A stretch of DNA of 64,000 nucleotides from Klebsiella pneumoniae (GTDB lineage: Bacteria > Pseudomonadota > Gammaproteobacteria > Steroidobacterales > Steroidobacteraceae): assembly GCA_945873095.1 (NCBI GenBank), contig CAMCBU010000007.1, forward strand, positions 1 through 64,000. The letters run 5' to 3'. Positions 25,759 through 36,403 of this stretch are shown here, piece by piece. The position numbers were made by a program, and so were the translations under genes. Numbering within the stretch: position 1 is the stretch's first letter; each line of letters starts with the position of its first letter. The notes below the pieces were generated by a model that did not search any database, was not told where the DNA came from, and saw only the letters and a list, made by a program, of their open reading frames with translations.

Positions 25759-27501
25759 GTGACCGCCGAGGCATTCATCGACGATTGCGCTCGGCGGATC
25801 ACCAACGCCTTCGAAGGCTATAACGCAGCCTTCCGAGAGATCACGCGTCGCGCTGCCGTTCGTTTCGAGAACTGCGACTGGACCGCCTCGCAACGCGACA
25901 TCGGCGAGCGCATCGAGCTCTACGATCGCTGGGTCAACCGGACCGTCGGCGACCTGCGGCAGGCGCTCGGCGAAGCGGCTCAAGATCGGCAGCTGTGGGC
26001 TCAAATCCGTGAGCGATTTTCGAGTCGGCTCGTCGGCACCGTCGATGCGGCTTTCGTACGCACTTTTTTCAGCTCGGTTTCGCGCCGTCTCTTCGGTACG
26101 CGCGGCGTCGACATCGATCTCGAATTCGCCGCGGTCGAACTCGACCCGCTCGCCGATGCCGAGCAAGCCGCCGAGTTGCAGCACTACGTCAATCGCGGCG
26201 ACCTGTCGCTACTGATCGAGGATCTGCTCGGCGAACTCCCACTGCGTCGCCGCTGGATCGATTTCGAACGCAGCGTCAAGCACACCACGAGCGACATCAC
26301 CGATGTGCTGCGTAACGGCGGCTTCGGCGAGACCGATCAATGCGTGCGGCAAATCGAAGTGCTGCGGCCGCTGTTTTTTCAGAGCACCCGAGCCTATCTC
26401 GTCGGCCGGATCCAACTGGCCGAGGGGTATCTGCCACTGTTGATCGCACTGCAAAACACCGAGCGCGGGATGTTGGTCGATGCCGTCATGCTGCACGAGA
26501 GCGATGTCAGCATCGTTTTTGGTTTCACGCGCACCTACTTTCATGTCGATCTCGAACGGGTGGTCGAAACGGTGGTCTTCCTGCGCAAGATCTTGCCGCG
26601 TAAACCGCTAGCGGAGCTTTTCACGGTGTTGGGCCGCGCCAAACAAGGCAAAACCGAGCGTTACCGAGATTTGATGAGCCATCTTTCGCGCTCGGACGAC
26701 CAGTTCGTGCACGCGCCGGGGGAACGCGGCCTCGTCATGGTGTGCTTCACCCTGCCCTCCGTGGATCTGGTCTTCAAAATCATTCGCGACCAGTTCCCGC
26801 CAGTGAAGAACGTCGCGCGGCAGGACGTGCTCGACAAATACAAATTCGTCTTTCAGCACGACCGAGCCGGTCGCCTCGTCGATGCCCAAGAATTCAAGCG
26901 TCTGCGCTTGCCACTGAATCGATTCGCGCCGGCACTGCTTGCCGAACTGCAGAGCGAAACCGCAGCGACGGTGCACATTGATGGCCCAGATTTGATCTTT
27001 GATCACATCTACATCGAGCGACGCATCACGCCCTTGAACTTGTATCTTCGCGAAGCGCCAGCGGATCTCGCCGAAAAAGCAGCCTTGGACTATGGCCAGG
27101 CCATCCGTGATCTGGCCCTCTCGAATATTTTCGCGGGTGATCTACTTTTGAAAAATTTCGGAGTCACTCGGCATGGCCGTGTGATCTTCTACGACTATGA
27201 CGAGCTCTGTCGGGTCACCGATTGTCGGTTCCGGGAGGTGCCGGTCGCCGACAACGACGAAGACGACATGCGGGCCGAGGCCTGGTTCTACGTCGCCGAC
27301 AACGACGTATTTCCGGAAACGTTCGTCAAGTTTCTTGCTTTCGATGATTTGCAACGAGCGGCATTCATGCGTGTCCACGGAGATCTGCTTACGGCGGACT
27401 TTTGGCGTAGCATCCAACAACGCACCAAAGCCGGCGAAGTTTTGGAGGTCTTGCCCTACCAACCGCGCCGTGTTCGTGCTGCCGGGAGTATCGTGTCTTG
27501 A
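25759..27501 (+). CDS. aceK: Isocitrate dehydrogenase kinase/phosphatase
   Basis: ERGMLVDAVMLHESDVSIVFGFTRTYFHVDL, GLVMVCFTLPSVDLVFKIIRDQF, VIFYDYDELC; likely GTG start 12 nt after icd stop. Confidence 0.96.
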   Translation: MTAEAFIDDCARRITNAFEGYNAAFREITRRAAVRFENCDWTASQRDIGERIELYDRWVNRTVGDLRQALGEAAQDRQLWAQIRERFSSRLVGTVDAAFVRTFFSSVSRRLFGTRGVDIDLEFAAVELDPLADAEQAAELQHYVNRGDLSLLIEDLLGELPLRRRWIDFERSVKHTTSDITDVLRNGGFGETDQCVRQIEVLRPLFFQSTRAYLVGRIQLAEGYLPLLIALQNTERGMLVDAVMLHESDVSIVFGFTRTYFHVDLERVVETVVFLRKILPRKPLAELFTVLGRAKQGKTERYRDLMSHLSRSDDQFVHAPGERGLVMVCFTLPSVDLVFKIIRDQFPPVKNVARQDVLDKYKFVFQHDRAGRLVDAQEFKRLRLPLNRFAPALLAELQSETAATVHIDGPDLIFDHIYIERRITPLNLYLREAPADLAEKAALDYGQAIRDLALSNIFAGDLLLKNFGVTRHGRVIFYDYDELCRVTDCRFREVPVADNDEDDMRAEAWFYVADNDVFPETFVKFLAFDDLQRAAFMRVHGDLLTADFWRSIQQRTKAGEVLEVLPYQPRRVRAAGSIVS

Positions 27502-28733
27502 GTCCGATCGCCTACGCGATTCCGATTTTCATGCTCAGTATCGTGGTCGAGTATCTGCTCGCGCGTCGTCGCGCGCCTGGCGCTTACGACATCGCCGATG
27601 GCGTCACGAGCCTGCACTTTGGTGTGCTGAGTCAAATCGCCGGCGCTTTCACCTATTTTTTGACCATCGGCATCTACAGCTGGACGTTCGAACACTTTCG
27701 ACTCGCGACGCTGCCGCAAAACGAGTGGTGGGTTTGGCTGTTTGCGCTGCTGTTCTACGATTTCTGTTACTACTGGGTGCACCGCGCGGGCCACGAGGTC
27801 AATCTGCTGTGGGGCGCGCACCAAGTGCACCACTCCTCGGAGTACTACAACCTCACCACGGCGCTCAGGCAAACCGCCACCGGCGCGTTCACGGCATGGC
27901 CGTTCTATCTCGCCATGGCGCTGGCCGGCGTTCCACCCTTCGTCTTCGGGGTCGTCGCCTTGATCGATCTGCTCTACCAGTATTGGGTACACACGCAACT
28001 CGTGCCCAAACTCGGCGTGCTCGATCGTATTCTCGTCACGCCATCGAATCATCGTGTTCATCACGGCCAGAACGACTACTGTCTCGATCGCAACTACGGC
28101 GGCATCCTCATTGTCTGGGACCGCCTGTTCGGCACTTTCGTCGAAGAGCGCGATGATGAGCCCGTCGTGTACGGGATCCGCTCGCCGCTCGGCAGTTACG
28201 ATCCGGTGTGGGGTAACCTCAACGTCTATCGAGACATCGCGCGACGATCGCGCGCTGCGCCCAGTTTCGCCAAAGCCATCGGCGTCTGGTTCGAGCCGCC
28301 TGCAGGGCGCGGGCAAAAGCCGCCGCCGATGCGGCCGGATTTTCGTCGCTACGACTCGCCGGCCAGTGCCTCTGCGCGCCGCTATGCACTCGGGCAATAC
28401 GTGCTTCTGATCGTACCGGCGACCCATTTCATCGCCATCGCTCGGCAACTCGAGTGGCTAGAGCGTGTGCAATACGCGCTCATTCTCGTCGCCTGGGTTT
28501 GGAGTTTGAGCAATGTGCTCGAATCGCGCGCGCAGTCGCGGCGCGTCGAAACACTGCGAGTCGTTGCGACCGCCTCGCTCCTGATATTCAGTGCGTCCTG
28601 GTTTGGGCTCGCGATGGAGGTCATCTGGCGAGCGCTGTTCGCGCTGCTGATGCTGTCACCGCTTTGGTATCTGTACCGCAACGATCAAGCGGCTACGCCC
28701 ACCCCTTCGAGTCGATCCTCGATATCCGCGTAG
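27498..28733 (+). CDS. Sterol desaturase / fatty acid hydroxylase family membrane protein
   Basis: His-box motifs HRAGH, HQVHH, NHRVHHGQN; hydrophobic C-terminal extension. Confidence 0.92.
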   Translation: MSPIAYAIPIFMLSIVVEYLLARRRAPGAYDIADGVTSLHFGVLSQIAGAFTYFLTIGIYSWTFEHFRLATLPQNEWWVWLFALLFYDFCYYWVHRAGHEVNLLWGAHQVHHSSEYYNLTTALRQTATGAFTAWPFYLAMALAGVPPFVFGVVALIDLLYQYWVHTQLVPKLGVLDRILVTPSNHRVHHGQNDYCLDRNYGGILIVWDRLFGTFVEERDDEPVVYGIRSPLGSYDPVWGNLNVYRDIARRSRAAPSFAKAIGVWFEPPAGRGQKPPPMRPDFRRYDSPASASARRYALGQYVLLIVPATHFIAIARQLEWLERVQYALILVAWVWSLSNVLESRAQSRRVETLRVVATASLLIFSASWFGLAMEVIWRALFALLMLSPLWYLYRNDQAATPTPSSRSSISA

Positions 28734-31700
28734 AGGCCCTGCAAGCGCTCGAGCGTGGCCGCATCGGCTTGCCACATGCCGCGTCCGTTGGCTTCGATCA
28801 GGCGACCCACAGCGTTGCGTAACGCCTGCGGATTGGCCGTCTCGAGACGTCGACGCATCGACTCGTCGAGCAAAAAAGTCTTCGCAGCGTCATCGAATAC
28901 CCATTGATCGACCGAGCCGATGGCGCCCCAACCGACCAGATGCGTAAAGCGGTTGCTGATCTCGGCGGCGCCGCTATGACCATGCGCGAGCATGCCCTCG
29001 TACCACTTGGGATTCAGAAACTTCGAGCGCGCTTCGATACGCAGTAGCTCATCTGACCCGGCCACTTTGACGTCCCCGGTATACGTCTCGGCATAGGTCA
29101 GCGGGACTTTGCCACTTTGGCTTTTTTGAGCGGCGAGCTGGATAGCACCGGAATGTCCGTAATAGTGGGTCATGTCGGTAAGACCGTATTCGACCGAATC
29201 GATGGCTTGGAAGACATGATCCACCTTGCCCAATAAATTTTTGAGCGTGGCAGGTGCGGCCGCACCATTGCGCTTACCACCGGCGGTATAGGCGTTGCGC
29301 CTCTCGTACATGGCGGCAAGCTCATCGGACTCTTCCCACTGACTCTCTTCGATCAACTCATCCACGCCGGTGCCGTAAAGTCCGGGGGCTTGCGTGAAGA
29401 CACGCGCCGTCGCCTCATCGAGACTGCGGCCCTCGGCGAGCAGATCGTCGGTATGTGCCTTGATGAAGTTCTGCTCACGCGGCTCATCCACGGTCGCTGC
29501 GACTCGAAACAATTCATCGAGCAGGTCGAGTGTCATCTGGAAGGTGTCGCGGAATATCGACGACACATCGAGCAAGACGTCGATACGCGCACGCCCCAAT
29601 TGCTCGAGCGGAATCAAGCGATAGCGGAAGATCTTGCCTTGTCCGTCACGCTCGGGCTCGGCACCGATCAACGCCAGCACCACACCGAGTCCCTCGCCTT
29701 CGCTCTTGATGGTATCCATGGCCCACAGCGCCTGCGCCACGGTGCGCGGCAAAGAGCCATGCTCGGCGAGGTGCTTCTGCAGCAGCGCCTCGGCCATGCG
29801 CCGACCACGCTCGAGCGCGAGATCGGTCGGCAAACGCCACGGGTCGATGCCGTGAATGTTGCGCCCCGAGGGCAGCGCTGCGGCACCGGCTCGCACCGGG
29901 TCCGCGCCGTAGGCGGGTCGGATGTAGCCACCCTCCAGAGCATGCATCAGGGCGTCGAGTTCTTCGCCGCAACGCGACATCCCCGTGAGAATGCCGCGAC
30001 CTTCACCGATGTGCTCAAGAAGCGATGCGGGAGCCGGCGTCTCGGCAGCGTGTTCGCGCCACACCCGCGCGGGGTCTTCGCGACCGAGCACGGAACGCTC
30101 CACGAGTGCGTCGCGCAGCTCGCGTACCGCGCCAGGCTCGAGTCCTAAACTCTGAGCGATGGCGGTGAAGCCACCCATGCCTCGACGTGGCACGTCCATC
30201 GACGCCTCGATGAGCGCGCGGGCGCGCTGTCGATCCGGTGCCTGACCGAAGACATGCAAGCCATCGCTGATCAGTCGATCCTCGATCGAGGCCAGCCACG
30301 CTTGAACTCGCGCACGATAAGCAGCGATCGGCTCATCGGCGAGACGCGCAATTTCCGGCAATAACCCGTCGAGCGTATCGTTCGCATCATCAAGCCGAGC
30401 ACGAACCTGCGCGAGCTGCTTGTAGAGACCGGCGCGCGCATACGGTGGCACCGCATGACTTACGATGGTGGCATACGCGCGGCGCCGCGCAATCGCAGCC
30501 TCGGCGGGATTATTGAGCGGATACAGATACAAGTTCGGCAAGCTGCCAAGCAGCTGATCCGGCCAGCAATCGGCTGTGAGTGCCGCCTGTAAGCCGGGCA
30601 TCCATTCGGCGGTGCCATGCATGCCGACATGGATCACGGCATCCGCTTTGAAGCCCTGCTTCAGCCACGCGTAGAACGCCGCGTACTGGTGGTGTGGCGT
30701 GAACGTTTTCTCGAACAGCAATTTCATCGGATCGCCCGGCACACCCATCGGTGGCTGCACGCCGAGCAACACATTGCCGTATTCCAAGGTATCGAGTCGT
30801 AGCGCATCGCGACCGGCAGGCGCGATATCGCCCGGCGCAGCGCCCCAATAGCGATCAATACGATCGGCTGTTTTGCTGCTGATCAAACCGCGGTATTGGG
30901 TATTCGTCAGCGCATGTGAGCTCTCGCCCTTGGCGAACGCCTCGAGCTTCACAAGCAACTCGTCGATCTCGAGCGGCGCCCGACCGATCGAATAGCCGGA
31001 TTTCTTCAAGCGCTTGAGCACAGCAACGACGGAAGCGGGCACATCGAGCAGCGCCGCGGTGCCTGCCTTGCCGAGGCCGGGTGGGAAGTTATACAAAACG
31101 ATCGCGACCTTGCGCTCGGCGGCGGGCTTGCGTCGCAAGCGGATCCAGCCCTCGACCTGATCGATCGCTCGCGCAATCCGATCCGGCACCGCCGTCAACT
31201 CGCCATCTTTGATCGCACCGAGCGCGACACTGCTCGCCACGCCATCCATCTCGGGCAAGTCGTACATGACGACCGACTGCATCGAGATCACGCCGCGTTG
31301 CTGCCAATCACGCTCATCCTGCATCAGCAGCGGTTGCGCCACGACGTAAGGCACATCGAGCTTGGCCAACAAATCAGCGGCCGTCTCGTGGTAATGCCCA
31401 GGCTTGGTGGAAGAGGCGGGCCCCCCGACGATCGAGAAACCCATGGTCGATAGCAAGGCATCGATCGGTTGATCGACCAACCACTCGCGCACGGCCACAT
31501 GCGCCTCGATCCCGGAGACGAACACCGGCAACACCGCAAAGCCGCGCGCCTCCAGACCATCGGTCAACTGCTGCAAATAGGCTAGGCGTTGCACCACGTG
31601 CTTGCGCATACCGAGTACGGCGACGAGTGGCTGACCCGGCCGATAGCGACCGTTTTTCTTGGCCCATTTCAGATACGCATCGGGATCGTCGAACAGCGCA

Positions 31701-32326
31701 CCGCTGCGCGGATCCCAGCAGCCCATGGTCGGGATGATGCTCACCGGTGCGACATTGATCTGCTCACCGAAGGTGTCGCGCACGATCAACTTGATCATCT
31801 CGGTGATGTTGCGAGCGTCGGGCTGATTCCAATACAGGTTCACGCCGAGCCAAGTTCGAAAGCCGGCGAGCTTCTGCGGAATCAGCGGCAACATCTTCGA
31901 GGCGATTTTGACGAGCTTGGTGTAGGCGTAGAGCGCATCCTCGTCGCGCCCGCGCGTGATCAGCCGCATCAGCAGCTTGACCGCTTTCGGCGCTTCGCCT
32001 TTCTTCTCCTTGAAGCGATGCTCACCGACCCGGGTGAGCGCCATCACCTCCGGCATGCTCTCGTAGGCAAAGACCGCCTTCGCGGCCGAGCTCTCGAGAT
32101 GCCGCGCGAGCCAATCGGCTTGCGAGCGCAGATTGATGAGACTGATGAAGACCACGTCCGATCGCGCCAGATCCTCGGCCAGCGCCTCGCTGCCCTCATC
32201 GACATGGGCATCGTGATAGCGACGCAACTCGACCGGGAGGCCCGCTCTCGCCAATGCCTGTTCGACGTCCGTCCAGACGGCCGCGTTGAACCGCTCGATC
32301 CCGACGATGAAGGTGATCGTGGTCAT
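28685..32326 (-). CDS. bchH: Magnesium chelatase subunit H
   Basis: ORF begins at 32392 but MTTITFIVGIERFNAAV at 32326 has SD GGGAGGG; LLGVQPPMGVPGDPMKLLFEKTFTPHHQYAAFYAWLK and VIHVGMHGTAEWMPG are BchH/ChlH-type; N-terminal DUF3479-like domain. Confidence 0.93.
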   Translation of the reverse strand: MTTITFIVGIERFNAAVWTDVEQALARAGLPVELRRYHDAHVDEGSEALAEDLARSDVVFISLINLRSQADWLARHLESSAAKAVFAYESMPEVMALTRVGEHRFKEKKGEAPKAVKLLMRLITRGRDEDALYAYTKLVKIASKMLPLIPQKLAGFRTWLGVNLYWNQPDARNITEMIKLIVRDTFGEQINVAPVSIIPTMGCWDPRSGALFDDPDAYLKWAKKNGRYRPGQPLVAVLGMRKHVVQRLAYLQQLTDGLEARGFAVLPVFVSGIEAHVAVREWLVDQPIDALLSTMGFSIVGGPASSTKPGHYHETAADLLAKLDVPYVVAQPLLMQDERDWQQRGVISMQSVVMYDLPEMDGVASSVALGAIKDGELTAVPDRIARAIDQVEGWIRLRRKPAAERKVAIVLYNFPPGLGKAGTAALLDVPASVVAVLKRLKKSGYSIGRAPLEIDELLVKLEAFAKGESSHALTNTQYRGLISSKTADRIDRYWGAAPGDIAPAGRDALRLDTLEYGNVLLGVQPPMGVPGDPMKLLFEKTFTPHHQYAAFYAWLKQGFKADAVIHVGMHGTAEWMPGLQAALTADCWPDQLLGSLPNLYLYPLNNPAEAAIARRRAYATIVSHAVPPYARAGLYKQLAQVRARLDDANDTLDGLLPEIARLADEPIAAYRARVQAWLASIEDRLISDGLHVFGQAPDRQRARALIEASMDVPRRGMGGFTAIAQSLGLEPGAVRELRDALVERSVLGREDPARVWREHAAETPAPASLLEHIGEGRGILTGMSRCGEELDALMHALEGGYIRPAYGADPVRAGAAALPSGRNIHGIDPWRLPTDLALERGRRMAEALLQKHLAEHGSLPRTVAQALWAMDTIKSEGEGLGVVLALIGAEPERDGQGKIFRYRLIPLEQLGRARIDVLLDVSSIFRDTFQMTLDLLDELFRVAATVDEPREQNFIKAHTDDLLAEGRSLDEATARVFTQAPGLYGTGVDELIEESQWEESDELAAMYERRNAYTAGGKRNGAAAPATLKNLLGKVDHVFQAIDSVEYGLTDMTHYYGHSGAIQLAAQKSQSGKVPLTYAETYTGDVKVAGSDELLRIEARSKFLNPKWYEGMLAHGHSGAAEISNRFTHLVGWGAIGSVDQWVFDDAAKTFLLDESMRRRLETANPQALRNAVGRLIEANGRGMWQADAATLERLQGLYADIEDRLEGVGVAA

Positions 32327-32353
32327 GCATCCCTCCCGATTGACATATCGGAG

Positions 32354-32371
32354 TGTCTTGTTATGTTGACA
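32354..32371. promoter_or_regulatory. Candidate PpsR/CrtJ-type operator TGTC-N10-GACA
   Basis: TGTCTTGTTATGTTGACA exact match to TGTC-N10-GACA in the bchH/bchI divergent region. Confidence 0.6.
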
Positions 32372-32412
32372 TATTGAAGGCCGGGTCACCACCGGTCGGT
32401 TTCGGGGGCGCT

Positions 32413-33426
32413 TTGCAACAGACTTTTCCGTTCACCGCCATCGTCGGACAGGACGACCTCAAGCTCGCCGTATTGCTCAGCGTGATCGATCCGGCCATCG
32501 GCGGCGTTCTGATCACGGGCCATCGCGGCACCGCCAAAAGCACGGCGATCCGCGCCCTCGCCGATCTGCTGCCGCCGGTCAGAGTCGTCGCGGGCTGCCC
32601 CTACCGCTGCGATCCGAACGAGCGCTCGCCAGACTGTCCGCGTTGCGCGAGCCAATCTGCGTCGAAAGTGCAAACACAACCGGTTCCCGTCGTCGATCTG
32701 CCGCTCGGTGCGACCGAAGATCGCCTCGTCGGTTCGGTCGATCTCGAGCGCGCGCTGGTCGATGGCGTTCAAGCCTTCTCCCCTGGTTTGCTGGCAGCCG
32801 CACACCGCGGTTTTCTCTACATCGATGAGGTGAACCTGCTGGAGGATCACTTAGTCGACCTGTTGCTCGATGTCGCGGCGAGCGGTCGGAACGTCGTCGA
32901 GCGGGAGGGTTTAAGCGTGCGCCACCCGGCACGCTTCGTCCTGATCGGCTCCGGGAACCCCGAGGAAGGCGACCTGCGCCCGCAATTGCTCGATCGATTC
33001 GGCTTGCACGCCAGAATCAAAACACTGCACGACATCGACCAGCGAGTGGAAGTGGTGCGTCGACGACTCGCGTTCGAGAACGATGCCGCAGCTTTCGTCG
33101 CGAGCTTCGAAAAAGCACAGAACGCACTGCGCAAGCGATTGCAAAAAGCCATCAGCGCTCGGCCCAAAGTCACCCTGCCCGATCCAGCGCTCTTGCTGGC
33201 CGCGCAGCTCTGTGACCGTCTGGGTATCGATGGGCATCGCGGCGAGCTCGCCCTCACCCGCGCTGCCGTCGCACTGGCCGCCTACGAGGGCAAAAAATCT
33301 GCGGATCCCGAGCTCGTGGCGCGAGTCGCTCCGCTCGCACTCGCGCATCGTCTGCGCAAGGATCCGCTCGAACCCGCCGCCGACGATGAGCGCGTCCAGC
33401 GAGTGCTCCAAGAAGCCCTCGGCTGA
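32413..33426 (+). CDS. bchI: Magnesium chelatase ATPase subunit I
   Basis: FPFTAIVGQDDLKLAVLLSVIDPAIGGVLITGHRGTAKST, VDLPLGATEDRLVGSVDLERAL, LYIDEVNLLEDHLVDLLLDVAASG. ORF opens at 32353 (GTG); TTG at 32413 fits the family N-terminus better. Confidence 0.93.
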   Translation: MQQTFPFTAIVGQDDLKLAVLLSVIDPAIGGVLITGHRGTAKSTAIRALADLLPPVRVVAGCPYRCDPNERSPDCPRCASQSASKVQTQPVPVVDLPLGATEDRLVGSVDLERALVDGVQAFSPGLLAAAHRGFLYIDEVNLLEDHLVDLLLDVAASGRNVVEREGLSVRHPARFVLIGSGNPEEGDLRPQLLDRFGLHARIKTLHDIDQRVEVVRRRLAFENDAAAFVASFEKAQNALRKRLQKAISARPKVTLPDPALLLAAQLCDRLGIDGHRGELALTRAAVALAAYEGKKSADPELVARVAPLALAHRLRKDPLEPAADDERVQRVLQEALG

Positions 33427-33446
33427 AGCGACCGGTAGCCTGCGCG

Positions 33447-35246
33447 ATGTCGCAACCCCCGTTGATGCGTCTGCCGATCGGTGGCCTCGTGGCACTGGAT
33501 GTGCCGCGTCTGGCACTGATGCTGCTCGCCGTCGACCCGGCTTTGCGTGGCATCGCCCTCGCGGCGCCCGCAGGCAGCGGCAAAAGCGCACTGTTGCACG
33601 GTATGCGCGAACTGCAACCGGATCTGCCTTGGGTCGAGTTGCCACTCGGCTGTGACGGCGAAGCCTTGCTCGGCGGACTCGATCTCGAAGCCACCTTGCA
33701 CCAAGGCCGTCGCGTCATCCGCACCGGCGCGCTCGCCAGAGCCCACGGTGGGTTTCTTTTGGCCGAGTCCTGCAATCTCATGGACGACGCGAGTGCAAAT
33801 ACCCTGCTCGGCGCGCTCGAGGATGGCGTCGTCCGTATCGAGCGCGAGGGTCTCAGTCTGCGCAGCCCCGCCGAATTTCGCTTGCTGACCAGCTTCGATC
33901 CTGCCGAAGGCGCGCCGCGCGCGCACCTTCTCGATCGCCTCGGTCTGATCGTGATGATGCCGACCATTCGAGCAAGCCAAGCGCGTGCCAGCATCGTCCG
34001 GCGACACTTGCAACCGGATACCGAAAGCTGGCGTGATGAAGCGCAGTTATTGCGCGGGCTGATCGAGAGCGCTCGCGAACACTTGCCCTGTATCAAGCTC
34101 GGTGACCCACAACGTCACGAGCTGATCCGCATGGCTGACGCGCTCGGCGTGCAAGGACACCGCGCCGATCTCTTCGCCTTGCGTGTCGCGCGCGCGAGCG
34201 CGGCCTTGGGTTTACGCGATGCGGTGCAGCGCGAGGATCTGGAGCTCGCCGCACGACTCGTCCTGCTACCTCGCGCCACGCGACAGCCGGATATGACGCA
34301 AACGGCGCCGCCGCCTGAACCGCCCGCAGCCGATTCCTCGCCGCAGAACGACCAAACCGAGCCCGATTCGAACGCCGTGCCACCGGAGGATCAACTCGAA
34401 CTCGCCGAGGAAGTGTTGGAATCTCTCGCCGTGGATTTGCCCGACGCCCTCGCCTCGCTCTCTTTCGCCAGACAACGCAGCGGCCGCAGCGGATCGCGAG
34501 GTGCCACGAGCGGTCAACGTGGCCGGCACGTCGCGAGCGTGCCCGGCTTACCGCGCGGACAGCGTCTCGATGTCATTGCCAGCTTGCGCGCCGCGGCCCG
34601 ATGGCAACGCGTGCGAACCCGTCGTCGCCACGGCATCGCGATCACCAGCGACGACTTTCGCATCAAAAAATATCGCAGCAAAGCCGGCGCCCTCTTCATC
34701 TTCGCCGTCGATGCGAGCGGCAGCATGGCGCTCAACCGCATGCGCCAAGCCAAAGGTGCCGTTCACGCGCTACTCGAGCAGGCTTACGTCAATCGCGACC
34801 GCGTCGCGCTGCTCGCCTTCCGAGGTCACGAGGCAAATCTGCTATTGCCACCGACCGGCAGCGTGGAGTTGTTGCGTCGGGCGGTCGATCAACTCCCCAC
34901 CGGCGGCGGTACGCCGCTCGCCGCCAGTCTCGTGGCGAGTGTCGAGGTTGCCGAGCAGGCCAGGCGGCGCGGCTTTGGCAACATCGTGCTCGTATTGCTC
35001 ACCGATGGGCGCGCCAATGTCGGCTTGAAAGTCGATCGCGCCGGCGTCGATGCTGAGGTGCAAAAGCTCGCTCGAGCCGTCGTTGCAACGGGCATTCGAT
35101 CGCTTGTAATCGACACGCAGCGGAGCTTCTTGAGTCAGGGCAACGCGACTCAGTTGGCGCGCGCGCTCGCGGGCGATTATCTCTATCTACCCAATGCGCA
35201 AGGCACGGCCATCGCCGCGGCGGCCCGTCAGGTTGCCAGTGCCTGA
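33447..35246 (+). CDS. bchD: Magnesium chelatase subunit D
   Basis: AAA-like N-domain, Pro/acidic linker (PPPEPPAADSSPQNDQTEPD...), VWA domain IFAVDASGSMALNRMRQAKGAVHALLEQAY. Confidence 0.93.
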   Translation: MSQPPLMRLPIGGLVALDVPRLALMLLAVDPALRGIALAAPAGSGKSALLHGMRELQPDLPWVELPLGCDGEALLGGLDLEATLHQGRRVIRTGALARAHGGFLLAESCNLMDDASANTLLGALEDGVVRIEREGLSLRSPAEFRLLTSFDPAEGAPRAHLLDRLGLIVMMPTIRASQARASIVRRHLQPDTESWRDEAQLLRGLIESAREHLPCIKLGDPQRHELIRMADALGVQGHRADLFALRVARASAALGLRDAVQREDLELAARLVLLPRATRQPDMTQTAPPPEPPAADSSPQNDQTEPDSNAVPPEDQLELAEEVLESLAVDLPDALASLSFARQRSGRSGSRGATSGQRGRHVASVPGLPRGQRLDVIASLRAAARWQRVRTRRRHGIAITSDDFRIKKYRSKAGALFIFAVDASGSMALNRMRQAKGAVHALLEQAYVNRDRVALLAFRGHEANLLLPPTGSVELLRRAVDQLPTGGGTPLAASLVASVEVAEQARRRGFGNIVLVLLTDGRANVGLKVDRAGVDAEVQKLARAVVATGIRSLVIDTQRSFLSQGNATQLARALAGDYLYLPNAQGTAIAAAARQVASA

Positions 35247-36403
35247 GCGAGATCGGCTTTGAGATCCTCGAGCGCCTCGAGCCCGATCGACAGTCGCACC
35301 GTTGCGGCGTGAATGTCGGATTTGACTCGATCCTCCGCGTCGAGATCCTTGGGCTGCATCAACTGCGGTGGCATCACCAAAGATTCGGTCGAGCCGAAAC
35401 TGGGCGTCATCGCGAAATACTGTAGCTTTTCGGCAAACTGCCTACCCGCCTCGGCGCCGGCTACGACATCGAAGGTGATGACACAGCCGAAATCGCGCAT
35501 TTGTCGCCGCGCGAGGTCGGCGCCTTGCGACGACGCGAGACCCGGATAGCGCACTCGCGCACAAGCCGGGTGTGATTCCAGAAACTGTGCGATCGCCAAG
35601 GCACGCGCAGATTGCTCGCGGTAGCGCAGCAGATACGTGCGCAAACCGCGCACCATGAGCGAGGCCGATAACGGATCGAGCTGTGCGCCAAAGAGACCGA
35701 AGTCATGACGCAACCGTCCGACGCTACTGCGATCGCCGATCACAGCCCCGCCCATGACATCGCCGGCACCGGTCGTGAACTTGGTCAGACTGTGGATATA
35801 CAAATCGATGTCGAACTCGCCGTGCTGATGCAAACCTGCCGCGGTGTTGTCGATGACCGTCGTCACGCCGAACTCACGCGCCATGGCAGTCAGCGCGGCG
35901 ATGTCGGCGATTTTATTGACAGGGTTGGTCGGACTCTCGAAGAACATGATCTTGACGGGCCGCGATCCGAGCACGGCACGCACGCCTTCGAGATCCTCGA
36001 TCGAGAGCATCGTGTGCGAGATACCAAAACGCGCGAGCAAGGTGCGGATGATATGCCGGGTCGGACCATAACCCTCGACGAAAAAAAGCACGTGATCGCC
36101 CGACTGGGTCAACGCGAGCAGGGTCTGCGCGATGACGTTCACGCCCGAGGCGGTGGTGAGGCACTCTTCGCGTCCTTGCAAAGACGCCAACGCCTGCTCG
36201 AGCTGCCGCACAGTCGGATTGGAGGCGCGCGAATAGAAGAAGCCGGCACGCTCGCCGCGGTAGACGCGCAGCGTCTCGGCGACGGTCTCGCTCTCCCATT
36301 TGACGTTCTGATAAATCGGAAACAGCAGCGGGTGGTTGTCTGCTGGCGTTTCGACGCCCGCTGGATGCTGTAGCGCCGTCTCAGCTCGCTCGGGTTTTTT
36401 CAT
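35228..36403 (-). CDS. Cys/Met metabolism PLP-dependent enzyme (cystathionine gamma-synthase/lyase family)
   Basis: YSRASNPTVRQLEQALASLQG, SLTKFTTGAGDVMGG, FGSTESLVMPP. Confidence 0.92.
   Translation of the reverse strand: MKKPERAETALQHPAGVETPADNHPLLFPIYQNVKWESETVAETLRVYRGERAGFFYSRASNPTVRQLEQALASLQGREECLTTASGVNVIAQTLLALTQSGDHVLFFVEGYGPTRHIIRTLLARFGISHTMLSIEDLEGVRAVLGSRPVKIMFFESPTNPVNKIADIAALTAMAREFGVTTVIDNTAAGLHQHGEFDIDLYIHSLTKFTTGAGDVMGGAVIGDRSSVGRLRHDFGLFGAQLDPLSASLMVRGLRTYLLRYREQSARALAIAQFLESHPACARVRYPGLASSQGADLARRQMRDFGCVITFDVVAGAEAGRQFAEKLQYFAMTPSFGSTESLVMPPQLMQPKDLDAEDRVKSDIHAATVRLSIGLEALEDLKADLAQALAT

Follow-up and report, generated by a model that had tools for sequence, protein, structure and literature searches.

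Phototrophic Anaerolineae (Ca. Roseilinea, JP3_7 and CP2_42A) carry an 'atypical' bacteriochlorophyll a gene set (PMC5826079, PMC7842958, PMC8446752), and how they make this pigment without bchM, a cyclase or a protochlorophyllide reductase has been a puzzle since 2018. The genome under study has the same gene set: like the published Anaerolineae genomes it contains a bchH-like gene together with bchI, D, X, Y, Z, F, G and P, and is missing bchM, bchE and bchLNB as well as acsF and LPOR. Unlike the Anaerolineae, it belongs to a group of Gammaproteobacteria with a proteobacterial photosynthesis gene cluster (PGC), the ancestral complete PGC persists in sister genera and in one member of its own genus, and some members of that genus lack BchH too. 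Two other systems are close to the one described here. BchS and BchT of green sulfur bacteria, for which Mg-chelatase activity has been reported, belong to the same deep BchH clade (clade II) as our protein; they coexist with classical BchH and a full pathway, whereas here the clade II protein is the only H subunit. The ordinary proteobacterial Mg-chelatase (bchI-bchD-bchO; bchF-N-B-H-L-M-lhaA) is the same three-subunit enzyme with the same catalytic residues and a PpsR-type box, but in our genome the native copies are deleted and the trio lies outside the PGC. A freshwater study has named the Steroidobacterales genus UBA964 as a leading late-summer phototroph of one lake (PMC10976687).

The window, that is, the whole stretch of 64,000 nucleotides that was analysed, holds complete, divergently arranged bchH and bchI-bchD genes between a sterol-desaturase-family gene and a gene for a Cys/Met PLP enzyme, just as the first-pass annotation had described (Table 1). 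The loci it gave also hold, with the starts corrected from relatives (bchH now begins at 32326, not 32392, and bchI at 32413). All three genes are intact and their products exceed the curated cut-offs for Mg-chelatase subunits: BchH scores 1238.6 bits against TIGR02025 (cut-off 829), BchI 495 bits against TIGR02030 (467) and BchD 619.5 bits against TIGR02031 (500). Against the CobN model TIGR02257 the same BchH reaches 555 bits, below the cut-off of 822. These are the sole CobN/BchH and BchI/BchD proteins of the genome. The trio is interior to its contig (C7, 88,179 bases), and a comparison of the window's proteins with PGC proteins gave no match at E<=1e-5, in agreement with the earlier statement that photosynthesis genes are absent within 28 kb; no complete PGC lies adjacent to the window either. 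Both flanking genes were judged to be outside the system because the flanks differ between species.

Table 1. Positions of the chelatase locus in the window and of features on contig C5 that are discussed in the text.
Feature	Position	Strand	Description
Fatty-acid hydroxylase gene (flank)	27498..28733	+	Sterol-desaturase superfamily; outside the system
bchH	28685..32326	-	Clade II (BchS/BchT-type) Mg-chelatase H subunit, 1213 aa
Divergent promoter region bchH/bchI	32327..32412		86 bp
PpsR/CrtJ-type box TGTCTTGTTATGTTGACA	32354..32371		Exact TGT-N12-ACA, inside the bchH-bchI region
bchI	32413..33426	+	AAA+ ATPase subunit, Chloroflexota-type
bchD	33447..35246	+	AAA+/VWA subunit, Chloroflexota-type
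Cys/Met PLP enzyme gene (flank)	35228..36403	-	Outside the system
bchO	C5:69910-70815 (in L004)		Alpha/beta hydrolase
Membrane protein, P450 and ATP-grasp genes	C5:73889-77161 (L004:3890-7162)		P450 is CYP97-like
Small genes and methyltransferase gene	C5:105222-107583		Methyltransferase at C5:106399-107583
TonB receptor gene	C5:107801-110293		

The genome is that of a phototroph; it is a 2.49-Mb MAG in 69 contigs, with a completeness rating of 100% and a contamination of 0.32%. PufL and PufM are encoded on contig C5, not on the window's contig, within a PGC of approximately 34 kb that was read from stretches of C5. Its order is bchO, crtI, crtD, P450, ATP-grasp, crtB, crtC, crtE, crtF, followed by bchC, X, Y, Z, pufL, M, C, ispH, dxs and then by puhE, C, B, A, lhaA, bchF, ppaA, ppsR, bchG, pucC, bchP, several of these names having been assigned from position and sequence reading. 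The nearest relative (G007, REEB454), whose BchH is 98% identical to that of the window, has both chelatase and PGC on a single 458-kb contig, some 150 kb from each other; their association is therefore real, and a binning artefact is ruled out. The genome-wide search that the first-pass annotation had proposed recovered pufLM, bchXYZ, ppsR and puh, all on C5; BchN/BchB, AcsF and BchE, which were also on its list, were not found in this genome. The absence of BchN/BchB follows from the Oxidored_nitro search, where the only two proteins of the genome were BchY and BchZ. There was no match above the cut-off for LPOR, and none for BchE or BchM in searches that Rhodothalassium, Chloroflexus and two Chloroflexota MAGs pass. 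Among the enzymes searched for (BchM, AcsF, BchE, BchN/BchB and LPOR), the known ones leading from Mg-protoporphyrin to chlorophyllide a are absent, and the late genes bchF, X, Y, Z, C, G and P are kept. From the classical bchFNBHLM set the PGC contains only bchF, and it contains no bchID.

How this state arose can be read from relatives. A standard PGC is found in four genera of the same family (G126, G207, G339 and G187) and in one member of the window's genus (G397), with bchI-bchD-bchO-crtI, acsF between puhE and puhC, and lhaA-bchM-bchL-bchH-bchB-bchN-bchF, some parts being unrecovered in individual stretches. Derived members (the window genome, G007, G004, G006, G293 and G204) have the standard order minus eight genes at three sites: bchI-bchD are gone before bchO, acsF is gone at a puhC|puhE junction and bchN-B-H-L-M are gone at a bchF|lhaA junction. 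The window genome has a four-base overlap between lhaA and bchF, and 30 bp separate puhE from puhC, leaving no space for gene remnants. The native bchI, D, H, M, L, N, B and acsF have been cleanly removed from the PGC, and the later genes have been retained. One retained gene is bchO, which persists despite the loss of the adjacent bchI-bchD, so its role may not depend on the classical chelatase.

Derived PGCs have also gained a P450 gene, an ATP-grasp gene and a gene for a small membrane protein, all three of which the ancestral PGCs lack; the gain is seen in every derived member for which this part of the PGC could be recovered, one that lacks BchH among them, and is absent from G126, G207 and G397. 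In the window genome the P450, ATP-grasp and crtB genes overlap end to end, and the solved structures closest to the P450 are CYP97-type carotenoid hydroxylases. These genes possibly encode a new carotenoid modification. As a ring-E cyclase the P450 was set aside on account of these structures and its coupling to crtB, and it is at best a weak candidate. Some small genes, a methyltransferase gene and a TonB receptor gene adjoin the PGC only in the window genome and G007. This restricted distribution, and a likeness to Chloroflexota methyltransferases that is generic, led us to reject the methyltransferase as a BchM substitute.

The trio itself is apparently borrowed from Chloroflexota, judging from its trees. 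Rooted with CobN, the BchH tree has two deep clades. Clade I contains cyanobacterial ChlH, proteobacterial BchH including that of the sister genera, and the BchH that is encoded close to DPOR genes in the Chloroflexota G012 and G013. In clade II the second paralogues found in Chlorobi and Chloroflexaceae are joined by the proteins of Roseilinea-type Chloroflexota, of other Chloroflexota MAGs and of the window's group. The window BchH lies inside clade II (support 99-100, SH-aLRT), its group being sister to the other Chloroflexota MAGs (support 100), and so it stands among BchH/ChlH-type proteins and not with CobN, the grouping that would have counted against the first-pass annotation. A Chloroflexota-type origin also emerges from the trees of BchI and BchD, and the direction of transfer, from Chloroflexota to the window's group, would follow from the nesting. 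Identities point the same way for BchH, with 54-59% to clade II Chloroflexota MAGs versus 34-40% to the sister genera; the window's BchD and BchI are 38-58% identical to those of G126. The flanking genes vary among species of the genus, indicating that the trio has moved without a constant neighbour. We are confident that it is a horizontally acquired clade II (BchS/BchT-like) chelatase with its own BchI and BchD, in a phototroph that has had its native early genes (bchI, D, H, M, L, N, B and acsF) deleted while the late genes were kept. The suggestion of a phototroph with a fragmented cluster was right in part: pufLM and the PGC are on C5, but the trio is an acquired replacement and not a displaced piece of the native cluster.

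Two other readings offered at the outset, a relic and a chelatase repurposed outside photosynthesis, are unlikely. Against the former, the genes of the chelatase and the puf, puh and bch genes all have dN/dS values of about 0.03-0.2 and contain no internal stops; against the latter, the divergent promoter holds a conserved PpsR-type box. An exact TGT-N12-ACA match occurs in the bchH-bchI region of 7 of the 9 genus loci compared, such a site is contained in 1.3% of shuffled versions of the 86-bp region, and boxes resembling the PpsR/CrtJ type are also found before bchC and near crtE and bchG. From this we would expect the trio to be under PpsR-type regulation. The equivalents of ChlH H621, E625 and E660, which have been named catalytic or channel residues (PMC13297055), are retained in the window BchH as H570, E574 and E609. 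Two of the twelve fixed changes specific to clade II BchH (T569M and F575W) adjoin these equivalents and are compatible with an altered pocket.

Gene content across the order follows the same division. Our survey covered 396 genomes (several being the same assemblies as G001-G007) and found clade II BchH in 15 of the 21 genus members, every one of which has at most BchY and BchZ (in G327 only a fragment). The genus member with classical BchH (G397) also has BchN and BchB, and most tested relatives with classical BchH have BchN, BchB, BchY and BchZ. Three genus MAGs with BchY and BchZ have no BchH: G166 (98% complete), G204 (95%) and G355 (87%). Of these, G166 and G355 seem to be near relatives, and for all three the search covered the H subunit; in G204 the PGC is intact up to the contig end and under purifying selection. 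In Chloroflexota, BchM and BchE are both missing where clade II BchH is the only one (G009-G011, plus G015 and G016 of the Roseilinea type), and none of G009-G011 has a complete BchN or BchB. The clade I BchH genomes G012 and G017 have BchM and BchE, and G013 matches this pattern. A partial third Oxidored_nitro protein occurs in G008.

Starting from the gene content, the excisions, the foreign origin of the trio, its box, the selection on it, its residues and the state of BchXYZ, we infer a scheme of uptake, substrate and regulation in which the chelatase serves chlorin salvage. Cells without de novo chlorophyllide a synthesis would take up chlorins from algae or cyanobacteria and would have to dephytylate those that come esterified. 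The clade II chelatase would insert Mg into Mg-free chlorins, for example converting pheophorbide a to chlorophyllide a, which BchF, BchXYZ, BchC, BchG and BchP would carry on to bacteriochlorophyll a. Where Mg-chlorins were directly available the chelatase would be dispensable, and members without BchH would therefore be explained. That bacteriochlorophyll a is made from scavenged chlorins, with the chelatase re-inserting Mg, is in our judgment the most likely account of the pigment, although we hold it with a little less than even confidence. The explanation taken whole, acquired clade II chelatase plus chlorin salvage, strikes us as evenly poised between right and wrong. More tentative still is the specific proposal that the genus gave up chlorophyllide a synthesis and that a BchT-type chelatase re-magnesiates scavenged pheophorbide a, which would also solve the Chloroflexota gap. 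We identified no chlorin uptake system, and the literature searched contained no report of bacteriochlorophyll being made from salvaged chlorins. The TonB receptor near the PGC was considered as an importer and dropped since its type is not conserved among members; in G004 and G006 a small membrane protein comes after a TonB receptor, an arrangement that by inspection only reads as vitamin uptake.

The alternative that deserves most weight, although we consider it rather doubtful, is that the clade II chelatase makes Mg-protoporphyrin IX in the usual way and that the work of BchM, the ring-E cyclase and protochlorophyllide reductase is done by unrecognised proteins, as was proposed for Roseilinea-type Chloroflexota. 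Because BchS and BchT reportedly act as Mg chelatases, clade II may simply use protoporphyrin IX; moreover, phototrophic Anaerolineae have the identical gap and bacteriochlorophyll a-like fluorescence has been published for putative Roseilinea cells. The genes gained by derived PGCs could be read in this light, but the P450 has its carotenoid-type affinities and overlaps an ATP-grasp gene that itself overlaps crtB. Three or four steps would have to be replaced simultaneously, no linked enzyme travels with bchHID, whose flanks vary by species, and the members without BchH would need a new chelatase too. What tilts us toward salvage is that the loss comprises exactly the protoporphyrin-to-chlorophyllide block and that some members have dispensed with BchH.

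Ward and Shih suggested for Anaerolineae that a bifunctional BchXYZ reduces both protochlorophyllide and chlorophyllide, making DPOR unnecessary. The two complexes are homologous, but compared with DPOR-bearing relatives BchX, BchY and BchZ show 1/245, 3/300 and 4/307 fixed changes (pufL and pufM show no fewer), so bifunctionality gains no support; the loss of bchM, acsF, bchH, bchI and bchD would also go unexplained, and we regard the idea as very unlikely here. Equally improbable is a decaying phototrophy in which the early pathway went first and the remainder is on its way out: genus genomes are small and two incomplete ones (G333 and G337) lack BchY/BchZ, but the selection described above, the conserved box and the gain and retention of a foreign chelatase all speak against decay. 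Least probable, if only just, is that DNA left unassembled or unbinned carries the missing genes. Every genome concerned is a MAG; the excision junctions were nevertheless read on contiguous sequence in several genomes, the window MAG is rated complete and no clade II genome of the genus has BchN/BchB beside BchY/BchZ.

With the same gap in an unrelated group, a shared chelatase clade, and ancestral and derived states within one genus, salvage and unknown enzymes become directly testable against each other. If salvage is true, the primary pigment synthesis of some phototrophs relies on the chlorophyll of other organisms; if unknown enzymes are at work, comparing the two lineages narrows the search for candidates. 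Our results also suggest that BchS/BchT-type chelatases may use a substrate other than protoporphyrin IX.

Three further observations concern the wider distribution of these proteins. One genome of the same order (G037) has a separate, Chlorobium-like clade II copy in a bchI-bchD-bchH trio (L251; G037:C26:18925-25938), closest to a Chlorobium clade II paralogue (66% in H), and lacks any BchXYZ/BchNB-type protein, so that a clade II chelatase is present in an apparent non-phototroph. Several phototrophic Chloroflexota encode a conserved protein of about 245 aa between bchX and bchY (L145:3533-4282, L148:4188-4916, L149:5390-6133 and L146). Finally, Leptolyngbya sp. FACHB-8 (G019, L179/L181) has, in addition to an ordinary ChlH, an extra BchH-like protein that forms a long branch basal to clade II.
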